Made by a program: the position numbers and the translations under genes | DNA from: Pseudomonas monteilii | GTDB taxonomy: Bacteria > Pseudomonadota > Gammaproteobacteria > Pseudomonadales > Pseudomonadaceae | NCBI GenBank assembly: GCA_001534745.1 | Contig: CP013997.1 | Span: 992,001 to 1,056,000, forward strand | Length of the DNA: 64,000 nt | Direction of reading: 5' to 3' | Notes under the pieces: generated by a model | What the model saw: the letters and a program-made list of their open reading frames with translations, nothing else | The model's database searches: none | What the model was told of the DNA's origin: nothing | Part shown: in pieces, positions 1 through 14,285 of the stretch | How positions within the stretch are numbered: position 1 is the stretch's first letter | Layout of the letters: every line of letters starts with the position of its first letter

Positions 1-2
1 GC

Positions 3-680
3 TTTGGGCCTTGGTCGACGCCGCATCAGCGCTTTCATGACTGGTGCGACGACGGCACACTTGAGCGAGTGCTGGAGAGTCCGCACATCTGGCTGAACCG
101 GGAAGGAATGATCAACTCGGACACCTGGATTAACGACTCTACCGCAGTACGAGCAACGTGAGCCTCTTCAGGCGTCGAAATAAAAGGGGCCTGAAGAACC
201 GTTAGATCATGCTTCGGGACGTAGTCGAGGCGGTCTGACCACCAAGATTCATATGGTTTGCAATGCCAATGGCGTGCCACTGCATTTCAGGCTTTCATCA
301 AGACAAGCCTGTGATGTCTCCCATGCTCAGCCGTTGCAGGCAATTGCAAGAATTGCTGGCAAGCCAGGGCAACCGTATAAATGCAGCTGGTGATTAGTGG
401 CTGACAAGAGATACGATGCCGAAAACCTGCCTCGGCACTACGACTGCTGCTGGATGCAACCGGTGATCCGGTTGCATACCATGGCGCGCAAACCTCGGTC
501 TGGTTTGCTCCGATTTTTGGCCGGCCAAGTGCCGCCAGCGGAACATTATTGAGTGGATGTTTGGCTGGCTGAAAGAGAATCGTCGGATCGTCACGCGCTT
601 GGACAAGCTCGCAAAAAGCTACGCTGCTATGGCTTCACGGGCTTGTACCACGCGGTGTTTGCGACATTTTTTTCGTACAG
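3..680 (+). pseudogene. IS5-family transposase relic (frameshifted)
   Basis: Reading three plus-strand frames in turn recovers most of an IS5-type DDE transposase. One frame gives FGPWSTPHQRFHDW and DTWINDSTAVRAT, then stops near 160. A second gives GGLTTKIHMVCNANGVPL and DKRYDAENLPRHYDC with internal stops. The third gives MFGWLKENRRIVTRLDKLAKSYAAM and ends near FFSYRT around 680. The block order matches intact IS5 transposases, but stops and frameshifts make it non-functional. The 5' end of the element lies outside the window and no terminal inverted repeat was recognised at the 3' side; the frame runs on past the expected stop, suggesting a deletion junction near 680. Confidence 0.85.
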
Positions 681-744
681 AACCTACGATTCCGCGAAGA
701 CCGCGATCGGCATCAGAGCCGCGCTGGGGTGCGCGGATCAGTGG

Positions 745-3700
745 CTATTCGAAACTCTGCTCGCCTTCCTGATCGCGCTTGCTCTCATGTTCGATCCAGC
801 GTTCGAGTTCGGGCAGCATGTCGGTGACCCATTGCCGAACCTCGCTTTCAGCATTTTCATACAGCGTGGTAATAGCCGCACGACGCCGAACCAGGATACC
901 GGCTAGCGAGCCGCTCCAGCTGCGCGGATACAGCCGCGACCAGATGTCACCGAGGAACGCCCGCTTGTCTGGCGCGTGGTCCAAAATCTCCAAGAAAAGT
1001 GTGTAGACACTATTTTCCTCTTCGCCCTGCCGCCGCTTGAACATGGGGATGCTTTTGCCAAGCAGCGGATAGCGCCGATTCGGATCAATATTCGCCCACT
1101 GAACAAGGGTCTCGGCGCTGACATCTTCCACCGGCGTGCCAGACCCGAAGTCCTCCTCAAACAGTCCCTGATTTCTAGGCCTAAGTTCGGGGAGCAGGAA
1201 TTCATCGAGTGCAATCAAGGGATGGGTCTCGAAGAGCGCCTTCAAGACATAACCAAGATCGTAGGACGATAGATAGACGGTCTCTAGTCCAGTCCGGATA
1301 CGAGCGCAGATTTCCCGCAATGTCGCCTCTCCATCGGGTCCGGGGCAGCAGATCCTAATAACGGTATGCAGCCCAAAATCGCGCATCGACTGCTTCTTTC
1401 TGAAGTCAGCGCGCAGTAGCAGCTCACGGCCAACAGCGATCAAGGATGGCGCACATTGGCGGCCTTCTTTCCGATCGCAGTAGAAATGCATGTGTAGCAA
1501 ATCAAGCGCGATCTCGACGCCGTCGGCCAAATTGCTAATGTCGATGAGTAGCAGGCCAAGTGCGTCGGGTGGAGACTCCCCGACACTGCCATTGGCGATG
1601 CTTTGAAAATTCCACGCCGAAAGGACGCCAATTTTGATCGCACGCCGAAGCCGCGCTATGCCTTGAGTATCGATAGCAACACACGCCTGAAGATACGGCA
1701 GACTTCCTGCAAGATCGGGATTCTGGATCACATTCTCTAGCGTAGCGTTGGCAAAGGTCGGAGTCTTGGCGTGCGCGCCATGGATGAACCCGCCCAGCAC
1801 CGTCGGATTCCGATTGTCCGCCTTGGCTACAGAGAACAAATCCAACAGTTCACACCACATCGCGTCAAGATCGGCGGCACCATCTGAGAGACCAATGCCG
1901 CATTCATAGGCGCGCTGCGGATTTTGTTCGACGAGCAATTCGGCGATGAAGGCAACTCGCGTCTCCGGGGTGTTCGCGAGTGCGGTGCCGATTTCTTTCG
2001 CCTGCTGGGAAGCGCGTTCATACGGTTTCATGAGGTCGCTGTCATCAGCGTCGCCGTCAACCATATCCCAACCGTAACTGCTGCGCCCCAGTACGACTGC
2101 ACGGGCCTGATGAAGAAGATCGGTGGGTTTCAAGCGTTCGATGAGTGCAACGAGACGGGTACGCACCTCATCCGGCATCTTGTCGCCCTCGAAGCGCAGC
2201 GCTTTGCGAAAGCCAATCCACCCCTCGATCCAAGGTCGCTCGGAAGAAAAATGGATCGCTGCCTGCTCGAGCGCATCGTGGCAGGCCCCGAAGTGCCACA
2301 GCGTTCTTACGCTGTGAGCAAGGTAGTCCCTGACGTTTTCGATGATTGGCGATAGCTCGACCGCCAGGTCGACCGCGCCGTTGTACCAGGCCCAGATGTC
2401 ACCATAGGTCGGCGGGTGCCAGCCATAGTCCCGTGGCCGGGCGCCGAAGTCGAAGTCGCTGGATGAACTGAAATGGTGCGCCTTCAGCAGCGCACCGAGT
2501 GCGACGCCGGCGCAGCGTGCCAAAGCCGGATCACCCGATTGCGCGAATCGGCGTATGAGCGCTCGCCGCTGATCTGGTAAAGCCTTGGTGCCGGACAGGT
2601 GCAGGTGATACAGCTCGGCGAACATGTCCGAAGCCGAGTTGTTGTGGTGGTCGGGCGATTCAGCGGAAAGGAACCGCGCAAGCAGGGTTGCCGCGCGGTC
2701 GAACAGCGGCGGATCGTAAGCGAGGAGCTTGATCAACCGTATCCATTGCCACCGGTTGCTCGACTGCGGATCGATGATCTTGCCGCCATCTGGGCCGGCA
2801 ATATCACGCTCGATCCTCGCGAGCACGGCATCGGGTGCAACCGGGGCGATGTTGGCGATGATCTGAAGGCCGTTTTTTCCCAGTGTCGTAAGATCGCCGA
2901 GTGGCCCGTCGGCACTGAGCCAACGCTCGACCGCGGCCCGCGCCTCGGCGCTGTCGTGCAGATAGCCGAGGCGGCGCGAAAGGGACTTCTGCATCCGCGT
3001 TGTAAGCGACGCGCAGAAGCGATCGAAATCGGCCGGCGGCATGCGTTCAAGGGCGAACCCGGCGAGCGGGTTGGCGATCGCATGCGGCAGGATAGCGCGC
3101 CACCGTCCCCGCAACTGCGCGACTCCCCGCTGTCGAAGCGTATTCAGCGCCTCATATATCCTTGCTACGGGAACACCGCGAATAGCGGCGACCCGCGCAA
3201 GCTCACCACCTTCCGAGGTATCCTCGCCATCGATCGAATAAAGCAGGGCAAGGTCCTCGGCAGCGGAAAGCAGATCCCGATCAGGATCGTTGCGCTGATG
3301 AAAAATCCGCCCGAAGAGGTCGCGGCTCTTGAGCTTTCCCAGGGTCTCGCCTTTTCCGAGCGTGTCGGCGAGAGCGCGCGCCACGCGGAAGTTGCCGTCG
3401 CTGAACTCTGATATGGTTCGCCTGTCGACCTGCGTCACATTGGGGGAGGTCTTTTCCAGCCACAGTTCTACCATTTCGGACGATGCTGATTGTAAGCGAA
3501 AGACCTCGGTACGCTCGGGTTCGTCGTCGCGAACATCATATTCGACAGTTAAGAGACTGACTTGGCTTCCCGCTTCCGAACAGATGTGTGCCAATTCGCT
3601 GTGCGTCGCCGGGTTACAGTTGTCGACGATCAGGATCGCACGGTGCCGTGCGATCACCAGCTGGCGCGCCATGTCCCGTGCGGTCGGGTCAGTCTCCGCC

Positions 3701-3951
3701 GAATAGTCGGTATAAACGGCGAGCCCCGGATCGAGCGGCACCTCGCCCACACCATCCTCGAACAGTGCCTGCACGAGACGAGTCTTTCCGAGACCGGACA
3801 AGCCGATCAACCGGATACATTGGCGAGCTTTGGTCAGAGAGGCGCGAAGCCGGGCGATACCCTCGCCGATGGTGAGTTGCTCGCGGTCGCTCGTTCGCTC
3901 ATCGGTTAGGCAGGCCTTATCGTTGAAGAGATAGGATGTCTCCTTGCTCAC
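745..3951 (-). CDS. STAND-type NTPase, C-terminal part of an amber-split nuclease-STAND protein
   Basis: A 1068-residue reading frame from a GTG at 3951. A P-loop lies near residues 50-57 (GLSGLGKT) and a Walker B strand near 105-110 (AILIVD), followed by about 900 residues of mostly helical sequence without transmembrane segments. This layout (NTPase, then a long helical sensor) fits STAND NTPases, including the Avs anti-phage group. The upstream nuclease frame (3988-4521) is in the same phase; only a TAG at 3990-3988 separates them, and the intervening codons read on as GWSSIGDW. So this is probably the larger part of one ~1258-residue gene broken by a nonsense codon. Translation could restart at the GTG, but no clear ribosome-binding site precedes it. 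Exact Avs subtype is not assignable by eye. Confidence 0.75.
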   Translation of the reverse strand: MSKETSYLFNDKACLTDERTSDREQLTIGEGIARLRASLTKARQCIRLIGLSGLGKTRLVQALFEDGVGEVPLDPGLAVYTDYSAETDPTARDMARQLVIARHRAILIVDNCNPATHSELAHICSEAGSQVSLLTVEYDVRDDEPERTEVFRLQSASSEMVELWLEKTSPNVTQVDRRTISEFSDGNFRVARALADTLGKGETLGKLKSRDLFGRIFHQRNDPDRDLLSAAEDLALLYSIDGEDTSEGGELARVAAIRGVPVARIYEALNTLRQRGVAQLRGRWRAILPHAIANPLAGFALERMPPADFDRFCASLTTRMQKSLSRRLGYLHDSAEARAAVERWLSADGPLGDLTTLGKNGLQIIANIAPVAPDAVLARIERDIAGPDGGKIIDPQSSNRWQWIRLIKLLAYDPPLFDRAATLLARFLSAESPDHHNNSASDMFAELYHLHLSGTKALPDQRRALIRRFAQSGDPALARCAGVALGALLKAHHFSSSSDFDFGARPRDYGWHPPTYGDIWAWYNGAVDLAVELSPIIENVRDYLAHSVRTLWHFGACHDALEQAAIHFSSERPWIEGWIGFRKALRFEGDKMPDEVRTRLVALIERLKPTDLLHQARAVVLGRSSYGWDMVDGDADDSDLMKPYERASQQAKEIGTALANTPETRVAFIAELLVEQNPQRAYECGIGLSDGAADLDAMWCELLDLFSVAKADNRNPTVLGGFIHGAHAKTPTFANATLENVIQNPDLAGSLPYLQACVAIDTQGIARLRRAIKIGVLSAWNFQSIANGSVGESPPDALGLLLIDISNLADGVEIALDLLHMHFYCDRKEGRQCAPSLIAVGRELLLRADFRKKQSMRDFGLHTVIRICCPGPDGEATLREICARIRTGLETVYLSSYDLGYVLKALFETHPLIALDEFLLPELRPRNQGLFEEDFGSGTPVEDVSAETLVQWANIDPNRRYPLLGKSIPMFKRRQGEEENSVYTLFLEILDHAPDKRAFLGDIWSRLYPRSWSGSLAGILVRRRAAITTLYENAESEVRQWVTDMLPELERWIEHESKRDQEGEQSFE

Positions 3952-3987
3952 GCCGACGCCGCACCAATCGCCGATGCTGCTCCAGCC

Positions 3988-4521
3988 CTACATACCGATG
4001 CCGAGCCGCGTGCGGACCCAGGCGGCAATTCCGGGATGGTGATTGACCCATGTCGCCAGCCGGTTGCGATCATAGAAGTCGCTATGCAACTGCCCGGACT
4101 CAGGCAGATCGTCGAGTTGCGCCCGGATCGCATCGCGACGATCGCTCAGCGGCTTGTCTGCTACTGACCCTTGCGCGCTGACGATGATGTAGGCGCCAGA
4201 GCGAGCGGCGAGTTCGGCGATGACCGGCCGTAGTACGCCGCCAGGACGCATCTCATCACGGATTGCGCTCGCCGGCATGTCGGGCTTTTTCACTTGAAAC
4301 CCTGTGTGCTGGCGCGGCACGAAATCCGGGATCAGCAGTGCGGACGGGCACTCGATCCGGACGTCAAGTCCGCCATCGGCCGCATCCTGATTGCCGCCAG
4401 CCGTTACCGACGAACTGGGGCAGCCCTGCGCCCGCAATTCTGCCATAGCGAGACGTGCGACGAGTGTCCGCAGATCAGCATCATTGAGGTCGGCGACTTG
4501 TGCGCCAGTAATTTCGAACAT
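3988..4521 (-). CDS. Mrr-like PD-(D/E)xK nuclease domain, N-terminal part of the same split protein
   Basis: 177 residues from an ATG preceded by a strong AGGGGG ribosome-binding site. The segment near residues 49-79 reads GGLDV...GFQVKK, which fits the Asp and (E/Q)xK elements of Mrr-type restriction nuclease folds (D53, Q76, K78). A Glu at 28 could be the upstream acidic residue. In Avs-like and Cap4-like defence proteins such a domain is the effector that cuts DNA once the NTPase part is triggered. The frame ends at an amber TAG and continues without a shift into the STAND frame. As it stands the cell would make a free nuclease domain, a read-through product, or nothing useful. Confidence 0.65.
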   Translation of the reverse strand: MFEITGAQVADLNDADLRTLVARLAMAELRAQGCPSSSVTAGGNQDAADGGLDVRIECPSALLIPDFVPRQHTGFQVKKPDMPASAIRDEMRPGGVLRPVIAELAARSGAYIIVSAQGSVADKPLSDRRDAIRAQLDDLPESGQLHSDFYDRNRLATWVNHHPGIAAWVRTRLGIGM

Positions 4522-4544
4522 CGCCCCAACCCCCTTTTATCAAA

Positions 4545-4580
4545 TATTAGATAGCATGCGGGAGAACGAAGAGCAGTCAA
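4545..4580 (-). promoter_or_regulatory. Candidate promoter for the nuclease-STAND locus
   Basis: On the minus strand a TTGACT element (4580-4575) is followed by an AT-rich stretch containing TATCTAATAT, then the AGGGGG ribosome-binding site of the nuclease frame. The spacing to the best -10 match is not ideal. The TTGACT overlaps the last codons of the relaxase relic, so the defence gene may use a promoter lying in older element DNA. Confidence 0.3.
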
Positions 4581-4850
4581 GCGATAGTTGGTCCGCCACG
4601 AAGGCGACGGAACTGCCAGTGATCCCGTCGCCACGCATGATGCCGGCGACTGGCTTGTCGAGCTGACGCTCCAGCGCCGTTTGCCACGGCACGAGCGTGA
4701 ACTCGCGCGATCCGTCGAAGATGCTGTTGGGCCGCCATCCGCGTGATTTATGCTAGGTGCGGAGCATCTGAAACCTCTCGAGATGCTTAAGCGCCGTGCT
4801 TTCCAGTCCGTTCTTGAAGAAAAAGCCCGGACCTTTAGTTCGAAATGAGT
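4577..4850 (-). pseudogene. 3' end of a DUF3363 (VirD2-like) relaxase gene, decayed
   Basis: Minus-strand translation gives GFFFKNGLESTALKHLERFQMLR, a TAG, then SREFTLVPWQTALERQLDKPVAGIMRGDGI, and after a one-base shift WQFRRLRGGPTIA and a stop. The order (LVPW..aLE...G..v.GvmR.dgi.W..gR.RG) matches my memory of the C-terminus of DUF3363-containing conjugative relaxases of the Tn4371-like ICE type. One stop and one frameshift show it is dead. Only the last ~90 codons remain; the upstream part ends in AT-rich DNA at 4871-4960 with no recognisable coding. It ties the adjacent nuclease-STAND gene to a former conjugative element. The call rests on a short match. Confidence 0.5.
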
Positions 4851-4961
4851 TCGAAGTATCGTATCAATCATGGCATTTTTGGTTGATTGATTTATATCAT
4901 ATTGATAAATATGGATTTTATATGGCTATAAATAATCGAGTGGGAGTAATTCTGTAGCGTG

Positions 4962-7255: not shown

Positions 7256-9277
7256 TCACGCATGGGTCAACCCGGTCAACGTGTCCGCAATGGTCTTGGT
7301 CCGCTGCGCCGTGCCCTCGGTCGCCCGACTCGACGCTTCCAGCGTGTCCAGCATCTCCCGCAGCGCACCTACCCCGGTGGACTGATCCTCGATCTGCTGG
7401 GCCACCCGCTGGATCTCTCCCGACAGCACCTCGATGTCCGCGCCAATGTCCGCCGCGTTCTTGCGTGTGATTTCCGCCAGCTTGCGCACCTCGTCCGCCA
7501 CCACCGCGAAGCCCCGGCCCAGGTCGCCCGCGCGTGCAGCCTCGATGGCCGCGTTCAGCGCCAGCAGGTTGGTCTGCCCGGCGATCTGCTGGATCACCTG
7601 CACGATCGACTGGATCCGCAAGCTCGACCCTGCCAGCGCACGCGCACCTTCCACCGCGGTCTCTGCCTGGCTGGACAGCCCTTCGACCGTGGTCCCGGCC
7701 TGGACGGACACCGTGTTCTGCTGGCCAATGGTGCCCACCAGTTCGTCCATCGAGGCATGCAGTTCACCGGAGTACTGCTTGAGCTGCGACGCGATGTCTT
7801 CCTGTTGGCGCTCGGCCTGGGCCAGCACCTGGCCCAGGTCGGTCAGGCCTTCGAAGACGGGCAGGATCGTGCGGTCCAGGCCACGGGTATTGAAGGTGTC
7901 GGTGAAGTCGTTGTTCTTGAACGCGGCAATCTGCTTGACCACCACATGGTTCAAGCCCGCCAGCTTCTTCACCTGGCGCCGCAGGAAGAAGGCTTTGAAC
8001 TCGCCGTAATGGGCGATGAAGTTGTCTACATACTCGGCCGTGAAGCTCGCCCCCTTGGCCATCCGAAAGAAGAAGATCGCCGTCAGCGTCTGGTTCAGGT
8101 TCAGGCCCAGGATTTCCCCGAAGGTCGAAAACCCTGCCAGCGGCACGTCACCGAACACACCGGTCATGTTGCCCAGCTCGGCGCCGTTGTTCAGCCGGCG
8201 CAGGATGCAGTCGTTCAGGATGCCCGCCACCGGCTGGCCGCCCTTGCCACGCAGGAACTGCTCATAGTCCAGGCGCGTCGCTTCCCGCAACGGTGTACGC
8301 CGCACCATCACCAGCTCTTCGCCCGGCGCCACGTCGCAGAACAGCTGCACGATCTGCTGTTCGTAGTCGATTCGCGCGATGGAGCGTACGAACAGCTCAT
8401 TGCCCACCCGAATCGCGAATGAATAATCCGCCAGCTTCGATTCCAGCGCCTGTGGCGCGCAGGCGAACGCGTCGCACAGCGCCTGCACCATGCTCTTGAT
8501 GTTGCCGCTGCTGTCGATCACCTGATCGATCGTGCGGTCCTCCACCGAGGCCGTCAGCACACTGAACGTCAGGTTTTCTGCCTTGAAGTTCTGGCTCTTG
8601 AACACGTCGAACCGCACGTTCGCCGCCGTCTTCAGGAACACGATCTGCACGTGGTTCTGATAGCTGCGCTGGCCGTCATGGATCAGCGTCTTCTGGAAGT
8701 CCGACTTGCCCCCGGCCGACCCGCCCACGAACAGACACGGAAAGCGCCCGGACTCGTACAGCGCCTCCATGAAGAACGACTCCGACGCCGACAACCCGTC
8801 GAACACCACGTACGCCAGCGTATCGCGGTGATCGATCGAGGTGCGCACCTGCGCTCGCTTGATATTGGCCACCAGCTTGGCGATCCGCTCCTGCATCCCC
8901 AGCCGCGGGCCCCCACCGCGAATGTCCTCGCACTCGAGCGGCACCATCACCACCTCGGCCGAGGCGATCACACTGTCGTCGAATAGCTGCAGCACGATCC
9001 GGTCCCAGCGCTCGCCCGTGGCGCAATACAGCGAGGTGGGCGCATTGCAGAGTTCGCCGGAGGTCGTGCACAGGCTGATGCTGGCGTGGGGGAACCGGCG
9101 CTTGAGCTTGGCGGCGATGGCATCGATGTCCAGGTGCGGCGAGATGAAGCCGGTGATCAGCAGCGGGGTGATGCGCAGGGCATCGAGCGCCGCGTCCAGG
9201 TCGTTGGCAGTGCTGGTGAGCGTGGCGGTGCCTGGGCGCGATGGCCGGGTTTTTTTCAGGAAGGCGAGTGGGTTCAT
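7256..9277 (-). CDS. Soluble chemoreceptor with FIST sensor domain
   Basis: 673 residues from ATG 9277 (MNPLAFLKK); an upstream in-frame start would add 17 atypical residues. The N-terminal ~400 residues look like FIST_N plus FIST_C ([55 protein letters not shown]). There is no transmembrane segment or HAMP domain. The C-terminal third is an MCP signalling domain with tip [24 protein letters not shown] domains are proposed to bind small intracellular molecules, so this should be a cytoplasmic receptor reporting metabolic state to the chemotaxis array. It follows the dCache receptor on the same strand with about 125 bp between genes. Confidence 0.88.
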
Positions 9278-12146: not shown

Positions 12147-12308
12147 TACGTAGGCACTGGGTGGGCGTTCGCCGAACAGGGCCGTCGCACAGGATCGCTG
12201 TCTTGGCCATACGGCATCGCCTGACAGTTCTGCCAGTTGTACTGCGTCTCTACAAACCACAAGCTGGGTGTCTGGTATGTAAAGAACACTGTGAGGTTGG
12301 GGGACTGC

Positions 12309-13247
12309 ATGGACAGGCGGATGTATTTCTATCTTCATGACTCCTCTAGACAGGAGATCCAGCAAGCACTGAGCTGGACGTTCATGCACGGTCACGGGCA
12401 GCCACTTGTCGAGTTGATGCATGCAGGTGCAGCGTCCGATGCGTGCCCACTGGCGGTCGATGGCGCCGCTTCGGTGCTGCACACGAGCAGTGCAGGGCAC
12501 AGGGTCGATCATGCCTATACGCCCTACGGTCATGTCTGGCGTAGGGATCGACAAACGCATCGGTTGGGATTCAAGGGCGAGCGTTACGATCCATTGAGCG
12601 ACACGTATGCCTTGGGTCAGGGGTATCGTTTGTATGGTCCTGGCCTAATGCGCTTCCTGGCGCCCGATAGCTTCAGCCCCTTTGGCCAAGGAGCGCTTAA
12701 CAGTTATGGCTTTTGTATCGGCGATCCGATCAATAGGTCGGATCCGACAGGCCATGTATCGGTGGAGGAGCTAAAATTAAGGATGAAAAGTATGGGGTTG
12801 AAGGCGACTGACCATTCGCCAGTCCTGCACAGATCGTGCGTTTCGTCAGCGCCTGAACGGTCTGAACAATCCCGGCAGAGTACATCTACCCCTGAAGACG
12901 CCCGGCCCAGCCAGGTGGCCAAGTCAAAAAAAACAGTCTCGTTCGAGGGCGTCGTGCGTGCGTTTGAAACCGACGAATTTACCGGGCTGCGTGCCCCCGT
13001 CGAGGTAAGGGCGTCTTTCCGCGAGCGTCTAGCGCTGTCTAAACAAGCAGGCGAGTTGTTCGGCCAGTATGAGGACCAACTGAAACAGTACACCACCGCG
13101 CTCTCCTATTCCCGAAGCGCGACCAATATCAGATTTACCAGAAATCCTTATTTTGCTGACAAGATGACTGCAATCAATAAGGAAAGACGCCACACAGTCC
13201 AGCGCTTGCTCGATGTGCAAAAGGCTATTGCAAAACTGCGCTATTAA
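12309..13247 (+). CDS. Orphan RHS-core protein A
   Basis: 312 residues from ATG 12309 with GGGGGA four bases upstream. Residues ~15-155 carry an RHS repeat-associated core: AYTPYGH, GFKGERYDPLSDTYALGQGYR, PGLMRFLAPDSFSPFG, GDPINRSDPTGH. In full-length Rhs or TccC toxins this core ends at the DPxG motif and is followed by a variable toxin. Here the shell-forming repeats are missing and only one core unit remains. The tail after 155 (~155 residues) is Lys/Arg-rich and helical, lower in GC than neighbours, and matches no toxin I know. The gene sits 99 bases before a second gene of identical length and layout. Role uncertain; a polymorphic-toxin reservoir or secreted module is possible. Confidence 0.75.
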   Translation: MDRRMYFYLHDSSRQEIQQALSWTFMHGHGQPLVELMHAGAASDACPLAVDGAASVLHTSSAGHRVDHAYTPYGHVWRRDRQTHRLGFKGERYDPLSDTYALGQGYRLYGPGLMRFLAPDSFSPFGQGALNSYGFCIGDPINRSDPTGHVSVEELKLRMKSMGLKATDHSPVLHRSCVSSAPERSEQSRQSTSTPEDARPSQVAKSKKTVSFEGVVRAFETDEFTGLRAPVEVRASFRERLALSKQAGELFGQYEDQLKQYTTALSYSRSATNIRFTRNPYFADKMTAINKERRHTVQRLLDVQKAIAKLRY

Positions 13248-13346
13248 GCCTGTCGGCAGGGGCAGTCTCGGCAGTTCCGTGGGGTTTTAAAGACCTAAGT
13301 GGGTGTTGCAAGGCAGCCGCACCCTGCATCATTGGAGGAACAGAAG

Positions 13347-14285
13347 ATGACCAAGGACCTACGTTTCTACCAACACAAGCAGTTGAAGACCGAAGTGGAA
13401 AACGCGCAATGTCGAACGCTCTTCTCGAACGGTCATCAGGCGCTCGCCGAGTGGCGCAATGCGGGTGCAAAAGCGCACGGCCTGCTATTGGCAATCGATG
13501 CTTCTCATTCAGTGCTGTATACCCGCAGCCAGTCCGGGCTCGTTGGCCGAGCCTACTGCCCCTACGGTCATGGCGCCTTTGATGGGACATCCAACCAGGG
13601 ATTCAACGGCGAGCGTTACGAAACGCTCATCAAGGCATATGCCCTGGGGCAAGGTTATCGTTTCTACAGTCCAAACTTGATGCGTTTTCTGGCTCCAGAT
13701 ACCGCGAGTCCGTTCGATCGTGGCGGTCTGAATAGCTACCTGTATTGTTCGGCCGACCCTGTGAACCGTCAAGACCCTGATGGGCATGCAGATTTCAGTC
13801 AGATGCGCAGAGTGCCGCAAAAATTCCTTGCAGAGGCAGCACGGCAGCGGACTGCACGGCAGCAGGTTGAAGCGTTTCGACGGCGCCGTGGTATCAATCA
13901 GCCTCCTCAGCCTCCTCAGGCGGCTCAGCCCCCTCAGGCTGCTCAAACACAGCCTAGAAATCCTCTGGCCTTACGCCATGGCGCTCAATTCTACGAACGA
14001 CCTAACGTCACTAACAACGCGCTTGCCGTACCTGTACGGCCGCCTGAAGCAACGACTGATTCACGTTCTCCTGAATCGACCGCAGCTCGCACGCCGACAG
14101 CCCTGCATGAGGAATTGATAGAGCTCCATAGCCATATACAGCGCTACGAGAACTCTACACGTTATCTGACACCAGGAACCGAGGTGACCGATAATTATGT
14201 GGCCGATATCGAACGTTTCCGGCAGCGTGCCCACTCAATTCGGCAACAGCTTGATGTGAGTCAACTCAGCTGGTTTCATTTTTAA
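13347..14285 (+). CDS. Orphan RHS-core protein B
   Basis: 312 residues from ATG 13347 with GGAGG upstream, exactly the length of protein A. Core motifs: AYCPYGHGAF, GFNGERYE, KAYALGQGYRFYSPNLMRFLAPD, GGLNSYLYC, DPVNRQDPDGH. The tail contains an imperfect Pro-Gln-Ala repeat (QPPQ, PQAAQ) near residues 190-215, then a helical end (NYVADIERFRQRAHSIRQQL). That end resembles the last segment of protein A (YFADKMTAINKERRHTVQRLL), so A and B look like diverged tandem duplicates rather than independent arrivals. No immunity-like gene lies between or just after them; the next gene is a DUF4034/Sel1-like protein. Confidence 0.75.
   Translation: MTKDLRFYQHKQLKTEVENAQCRTLFSNGHQALAEWRNAGAKAHGLLLAIDASHSVLYTRSQSGLVGRAYCPYGHGAFDGTSNQGFNGERYETLIKAYALGQGYRFYSPNLMRFLAPDTASPFDRGGLNSYLYCSADPVNRQDPDGHADFSQMRRVPQKFLAEAARQRTARQQVEAFRRRRGINQPPQPPQAAQPPQAAQTQPRNPLALRHGAQFYERPNVTNNALAVPVRPPEATTDSRSPESTAARTPTALHEELIELHSHIQRYENSTRYLTPGTEVTDNYVADIERFRQRAHSIRQQLDVSQLSWFHF

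Follow-up and report, generated by a model that had tools for sequence, protein, structure and literature searches.

An anti-phage PD-Lambda-4_A gene interrupted, probably recently, by an in-frame amber codon in a guaA island remnant of Pseudomonas monteilii

The window analyzed here, a 64,000-nucleotide stretch of Pseudomonas monteilii contig CP013997.1 (positions 992,001 to 1,056,000), carries on its minus strand a nuclease-STAND defense gene divided by one in-frame TAG. We consider it likely that this gene encoded a single-chain PD-Lambda-4_A protein, that a recent nonsense mutation broke it where the linker between its domains begins, and that the system is now inactive within a guaA island. 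The gene itself is an allele of a mobile, already catalogued defense family.

One Reading Frame with a Single Internal Stop

On the minus strand, an ATG at 4521 starts a frame of 177 aa (4521-3988) that is closed by TAG at 3990-3988. Downstream of this codon the phase is unchanged: beginning at 3987 it runs for 1,080 codons up to a TAG at 747-745, and the earliest start in this run, GTG 3951, gives 1,068 aa. The entire frame (4521-745) thus comprises 1,259 codons including the terminal stop and holds exactly two stop codons, the TAG at residue 178 (3988-3990) being the sole interruption, with no second stop or frame break elsewhere in the gene. A preliminary description had read two frames in one phase, parted by this TAG alone and continuing as GWSSIGDW; coordinates and translation agree, and the residues past the stop were read identically.

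When each half was searched alone against PADLOC, both fell on adjoining parts of the same model, PDLC03991 (PD-Lambda-4_A; 1,283 positions). The N half matched model positions 3-178 (E 7.2e-65) and the C half positions 181-1283 (E 8.5e-292), leaving only 179-180 between the two matches, an arrangement far beyond chance. At E up to 1, every PADLOC match of either half was to PD-Lambda-4_A models. The gene therefore covers the model over its full length, although its chain is not the single uninterrupted one of that family. Other libraries contributed little: the C half had weak Pfam matches alone, all below their cut-offs, and NCBIfam gave nothing useful.

The N half (residues 1-177; 3991-4521, minus strand) was predicted to fold with a mean pLDDT of 88.6, and the top rows of its structure ranking by VIA-align were FokI, EcoT38I, and the Avs4 N-terminus. 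For the C half (745-3987, minus strand), the best Foldseek match was Avs3, followed by Apaf-1, with NRC2 and NLRC4 also found, and its predicted structure has the P-loop STAND NTPase fold. C-half residues 1-21 (residues 179-199; 3925-3987, minus strand) had pLDDT <50, indicating predicted disorder. The joined protein is hence predicted to consist of a PD-(D/E)XK-like nuclease effector domain, a disordered linker that begins at the stop, and a STAND NTPase with a helical solenoid. As a counterpoint, on these predicted folds the stop sits exactly on the domain boundary, where a split would be least harmful.

The motifs expected of both domains were located on the minus strand by reading the sequence against conserved columns. 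Read by eye, the conserved nuclease motif region D53...Q76-x-K78 lies at 4288-4365, with E28 upstream; nuclease columns including D53, Q76, and K78 had a conservation of 1.0 in full-length relatives and were retained in the window, and the same three residues were invariant also in a 42-sequence alignment. The Walker A (P-loop) motif GLSGLGKT occupies residues 240-247 (3781-3804), and a Walker-B-like LIVDNCNP region surrounds D300-N301 (3610-3639). The preliminary description had named an Mrr-like nuclease joined to a STAND NTPase and had proposed running FoldSeek on both halves. The nuclease-like and STAND parts of that assignment stood; the strict Mrr part was not shown, as Pfam gave no match on the N half and the Mrr_cat model had no match anywhere in the genome. 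Foldseek supported the C half and returned nothing convincing for the N half.

Relatives Carry a Sense Codon at the Stop Position

A scan of named genomes recovered 10 loci, from Stenotrophomonas, Bordetella, Sphingobium, Siccibacter, Acidovorax, Xanthomonas, two Novosphingobium, Dokdonella, and Lautropia. In all 10 the stop position is occupied by a sense codon, and 8 are open across all 1,258 codons. The other two are damaged: L007 has a frame break further downstream, and L010 is degraded. An annotated, uninterrupted 3,777-base gene is likewise present on the Sphingobium plasmid AP027332.1. Lesions in relatives (L007, L010, G1152, and G1229) lie at other sites.

A wider alignment was built from the best 120 of 2,091 homologues of an intact relative, scoring having been limited to the 7,998 candidates with the most shared words; these 120 were selected by full length and show the normal chain, not the frequency of splitting. 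A residue fills the stop column in all 120 listed full-length relatives (Ser 82, Ala 28, Thr 6, others 4) and is directly followed by an invariant Gly-Trp. A PGWS-like segment, given in the preliminary description as running uninterrupted through this point, is indeed uninterrupted, but the residue before Gly-Trp is mostly Ser or Ala and is Pro in 0 of 120.

The gene was also surveyed at several taxonomic ranks. Within the genus, matches came from 12 of 398 genomes, including the window's own; of the 14 match rows, 12 lacked an internal stop, and the remaining two were the window with its TAG and a row with TAA. Matches were found in 5 of 144 genomes in a C-half survey of relatives, in 5 of 390 genomes of the order, in 15 of 369 genomes of the class, and, with the N half, in 8 of 398 genomes of the phylum, the window's genome being counted where listed. 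Short-frame matches to the nuclease domain also included G217 and G1444 (E about 9e-4). No match was obtained in E. coli genomes searched as DNA or in phage records searched as protein; 41 plasmid records had a match. DNA identity to the window was 86.8-93.6% in eight relatives, and the Bordetella and Sphingobium copies were 97.3% identical to each other; at such identity, the gene must have passed between distant hosts.

Flanking genes vary among the ten relatives. A PADLOC scan of 8 flanking frames matched type I specificity, Tmn, and PDC-S36, and SIR2-like weakly. A 379-aa SIR2-like gene was considered as a fixed partner and rejected, being upstream of L003, L007, and L009 only.

The Gene Lies in a Decayed guaA Island

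Upstream of the defense gene lies a second copy of the guaA 3' end (4935-4954, plus strand), 18 of 20 bases identical to the first and marking one edge of the island. The other copy of this direct repeat is the verified guaA 3' end itself, ~1.2 kb outside the window (L029:6828-6847), and the duplicated end is therefore present at both edges. Within the repeat is GAGTGGGA, the core given for guaA island sites in the consulted part of PMC7775301. The ~6.1 kb between the repeats have 56.8% G+C, against 65.1% in the window beyond 5100, and contain a FitA-like antitoxin frame overlapping a PIN-domain gene, a broken insertion sequence (IS), the defense gene, and upstream sequence shared with relatives.

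The IS and the upstream sequence are decayed. Part of the broken IS abuts the 3' end of the defense gene (1-686, minus strand) and runs ~220 bases beyond the window; it has inverted ends of 17 nt (L029:7780-7796 and 8670-8686), ten related stretches elsewhere in the genome that are 68-84% identical, and no Pfam match in its frames 35-280 and 553-906. The upstream remnant (4524-4826, minus strand) shares 85-89% nucleotide identity with sequence upstream of L001, L003, L006, and L008, and in L009, which alone among the relatives was scanned in this way, a portion of it forms the end of a DUF3363 (relaxase-type) frame; the window frame 4404-4871 had no Pfam match. The frames between the repeats that reach 80-100 aa or more were inspected by eye, four of them also in one Pfam scan and three in another, and no integrase of the island's own was seen. 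An empty site was not found: in none of four relatives examined did the chemotaxis gene that borders the island stand next to guaA within the stretch read. The island is a decayed remnant.

Selection on the Interrupted Gene

To date the stop, dN/dS and a tree were computed with nine intact relatives, leaving out the broken L007 and L010 and skipping or masking the stop column. Against its two nearest relatives, L003 and L004, the window had a dN/dS of 0.24-0.25, and against all nine 0.14-0.26, compared with 0.09-0.32 for pairs among the others. The window tip branch measures 0.056 substitutions per site. Were that branch fully neutral, ~5.5 stops would be expected, and one or fewer arose in 2% of 1,000 simulations. 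Only 7 of 446 conserved (≥90%) columns are altered in the window, compared with 2-12 in the first 14 listed relatives, although those 14 control proteins contributed to the consensus used to score them and the window did not. The earlier remark that the gene has suffered little further damage is borne out by the lack of another stop, the low dN/dS, and the conserved columns mostly kept.

Some relaxation of selection is nonetheless possible on the window branch, because its ratio of tip-unique nonsynonymous to synonymous changes (35:42) is higher than at the remaining long tips (L005, L009, and TomTYG65). With a background of 0.12, we estimate that no more than about 15% of the branch would have to be neutral. 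Selection thus seems to have acted along most of the branch, with the stop arising late. Of the three readings offered in the preliminary description, a recent mutation fits best, given a dN/dS of 0.24-0.25, the few stops, and the open frames of relatives.

Alternative Explanations

The same measurements bear on whether the gene could be an old pseudogene under no selection. The tip-unique ratio and the decay of the neighboring IS and upstream remnant lean that way, but a dN/dS of 0.24-0.25 against the nearest relatives, one stop where ~5.5 are expected under full neutrality, the absence of a frameshift, and the retained conserved columns have already largely refuted it, and we regard it as highly improbable. 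An error of base calling or assembly, with the gene in truth intact, is unlikely. In its favor, one tRNA-Ile copy of this assembly is short of one G in a G run relative to another copy, and two assemblies of a single strain, Xanthomonas campestris CN13, conflict on whether a distant relative is intact; these examples are differences of length, however, whereas the TAG is in frame and leaves length unchanged, and the assembly consists of one contig with a completeness rating of 100%.

If the stop is real, the product might still function by being read through often enough to yield working full-length protein. The frame past the stop is intact and bears a signature of selection, but that selection may be older than the stop, and the translation apparatus offers no help. 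Rfam placed 72 tRNAs in the genome; ARAGORN, run on 60 loci (30 + 30) covering these places, could read 71, one tRNA-Ile copy being unreadable, and none had a CTA (amber) anticodon. PylS stayed below its cut-off, with weak matches in 13 of 14 control genomes as well. The suppressed stop suggested in the preliminary description therefore gains no support from the tRNA set, and we judge read-through extremely improbable. No second copy of the gene was found, the surveys returning a single match in this genome.

Alternatively, a 177-residue nuclease and a sensor started at GTG 3951 or by re-initiation could assemble in trans and still defend the cell. In the predicted structures both halves form complete folding units, with the stop at the start of the disordered linker; effectors are exchanged near this boundary, an alpha/beta-hydrolase domain replacing the nuclease in two plasmid relatives; and a cluster of listed short relatives ends near residue 177. 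Yet anti-Shine-Dalgarno pairing reached at best -2.8 at GTG 3951, compared with -11.3 at ATG 4521 and a median of -2.9 for 500 random gene stretches, so that there is no ribosome-binding site above background, and TTG 3810 is the one further in-frame start ahead of the P-loop. The 120 listed full-length relatives, although selected by length, also cross the junction. The pair of cooperating chains proposed earlier thus found no positive support, and we hold it to be very unlikely.

Short nuclease frames were considered as natural split forms. Among the best 120 of 309 short N-half relatives, 52 terminate in register with the family; for 22 of these the end falls at residues 161-188, with three exactly at 177 and five at 167, immediately ahead of the invariant Trp. 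Such ends near 177 could be contig ends or mutations of Trp codons, and genuine split genes may be among them. The two genome cases of short frames that were opened, G1152 and G1229, are multiply damaged, and neither is a clean two-gene version. A broader proposal, in which the linker is a recurrent natural split point where stops arise independently, and either the freed nuclease and sensor act in trans or the stop serves as an on-off switch keeping a system prone to autoimmunity in check, seems to us decidedly improbable.

Interpretation and Comparison with Known Systems

A recent nonsense mutation in a single-chain PD-Lambda-4_A gene remains our preferred reading. In the intact form, to judge from predicted structure, the NTPase-solenoid would sense a phage component, and sensing would lead to assembly and to switching on of the N-terminal PD-(D/E)XK-like nuclease, as in Avs. 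From the window allele one would expect the 177-residue nuclease domain on its own, detached from the sensor, with the sensor made scarcely or not at all, and the system is most probably inactive. Anti-phage genes travel widely and are often lost; the window would then offer a snapshot of one such family being switched off just past its nuclease domain while the remainder is still fresh. Should the halves work separately instead, a STAND sensor could control a nuclease without being joined to it.

The island resembles guaA-integrated islands such as ICERspD18B in having a directly repeated guaA 3' end that contains the core, but differs from them in being a remnant of ~6.1 kb in which no integrase or conjugation gene was seen. 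PD-Lambda-4 systems are expected to have a second component; in relatives, the PADLOC scan of the 8 flanking frames matched no PD-Lambda-4 partner. The PD-Lambda-4_A model itself is one chain, whereas the window copy is divided by the stop. In the literature, PD-Lambda-4 is entered alongside P-loop NTPase in the part consulted of a domain review and is given by name in the passages seen of a genome paper, while the examined passages of PMC9519451, which introduced the PD systems, hold no text on PD-Lambda-4 itself.

Avs (antiviral STAND) proteins are also among the closest known systems. They sense a phage protein, assemble, and thereby activate a nuclease. The intact relative L004 had 0 sequence matches to solved-structure chains at E up to 1, and hence no detectable sequence relationship to Avs of solved structure at that threshold. 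In predicted fold the C half resembles Avs3, and the N half may resemble Avs4.

Domain replacement and damage among relatives of the defence gene

Relatives of the STAND part of the defence gene at L024:5206-9327 and L025:5215-9342 had the nuclease domain replaced by an alpha/beta-hydrolase domain, and the junction fell near the same boundary. In three sphingomonad loci only (L003, L007, and L009), a shared gene encoding a 379-aa protein was found upstream of the defence gene relative; when tested in L003, this protein was matched weakly by SIR2-type defence models.

Other relatives were broken or in dispute. For a distant relative on the plasmid of Xanthomonas campestris CN13 (L027 and L028), two assemblies of the same strain conflicted: one showed an intact gene, the other a frame break near residue 68. 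In another genome, G1152, the relative was split into pieces lying >30 kb apart (L154 and L155). Because the same transposase-like frame, recognised by eye, adjoined both pieces, rearrangement between two IS copies is suggested as the cause of this split.

Other features of the window and its genome

Two frames resembling short RHS-repeat core proteins, each with its own tail, were recognised by eye elsewhere in the window (12237-13247 and 13299-14285). In the genome from which the window derives, a tRNA-Ile copy (G000:C1:4594339-4594411, locus L068) had one G fewer in a run of Gs than another tRNA-Ile copy and therefore could not be named by ARAGORN. Either the assembly is wrong at this point or the tRNA itself is damaged.

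The guaA island remnant

Two copies of the guaA 3' end, at window 4935-4954 and, in a stretch of the same genome reaching past the window edge, L029:6828-6847, formed the edges of an island remnant of roughly 6.1 kb containing the defence gene. Within the same island, outside the window, two small overlapping genes (L029:7085-7339 and 7336-7755) encoded a FitA-like antitoxin and a PIN-domain toxin-like protein, and at the DNA level this pair matched VapBC-type plasmid pairs.
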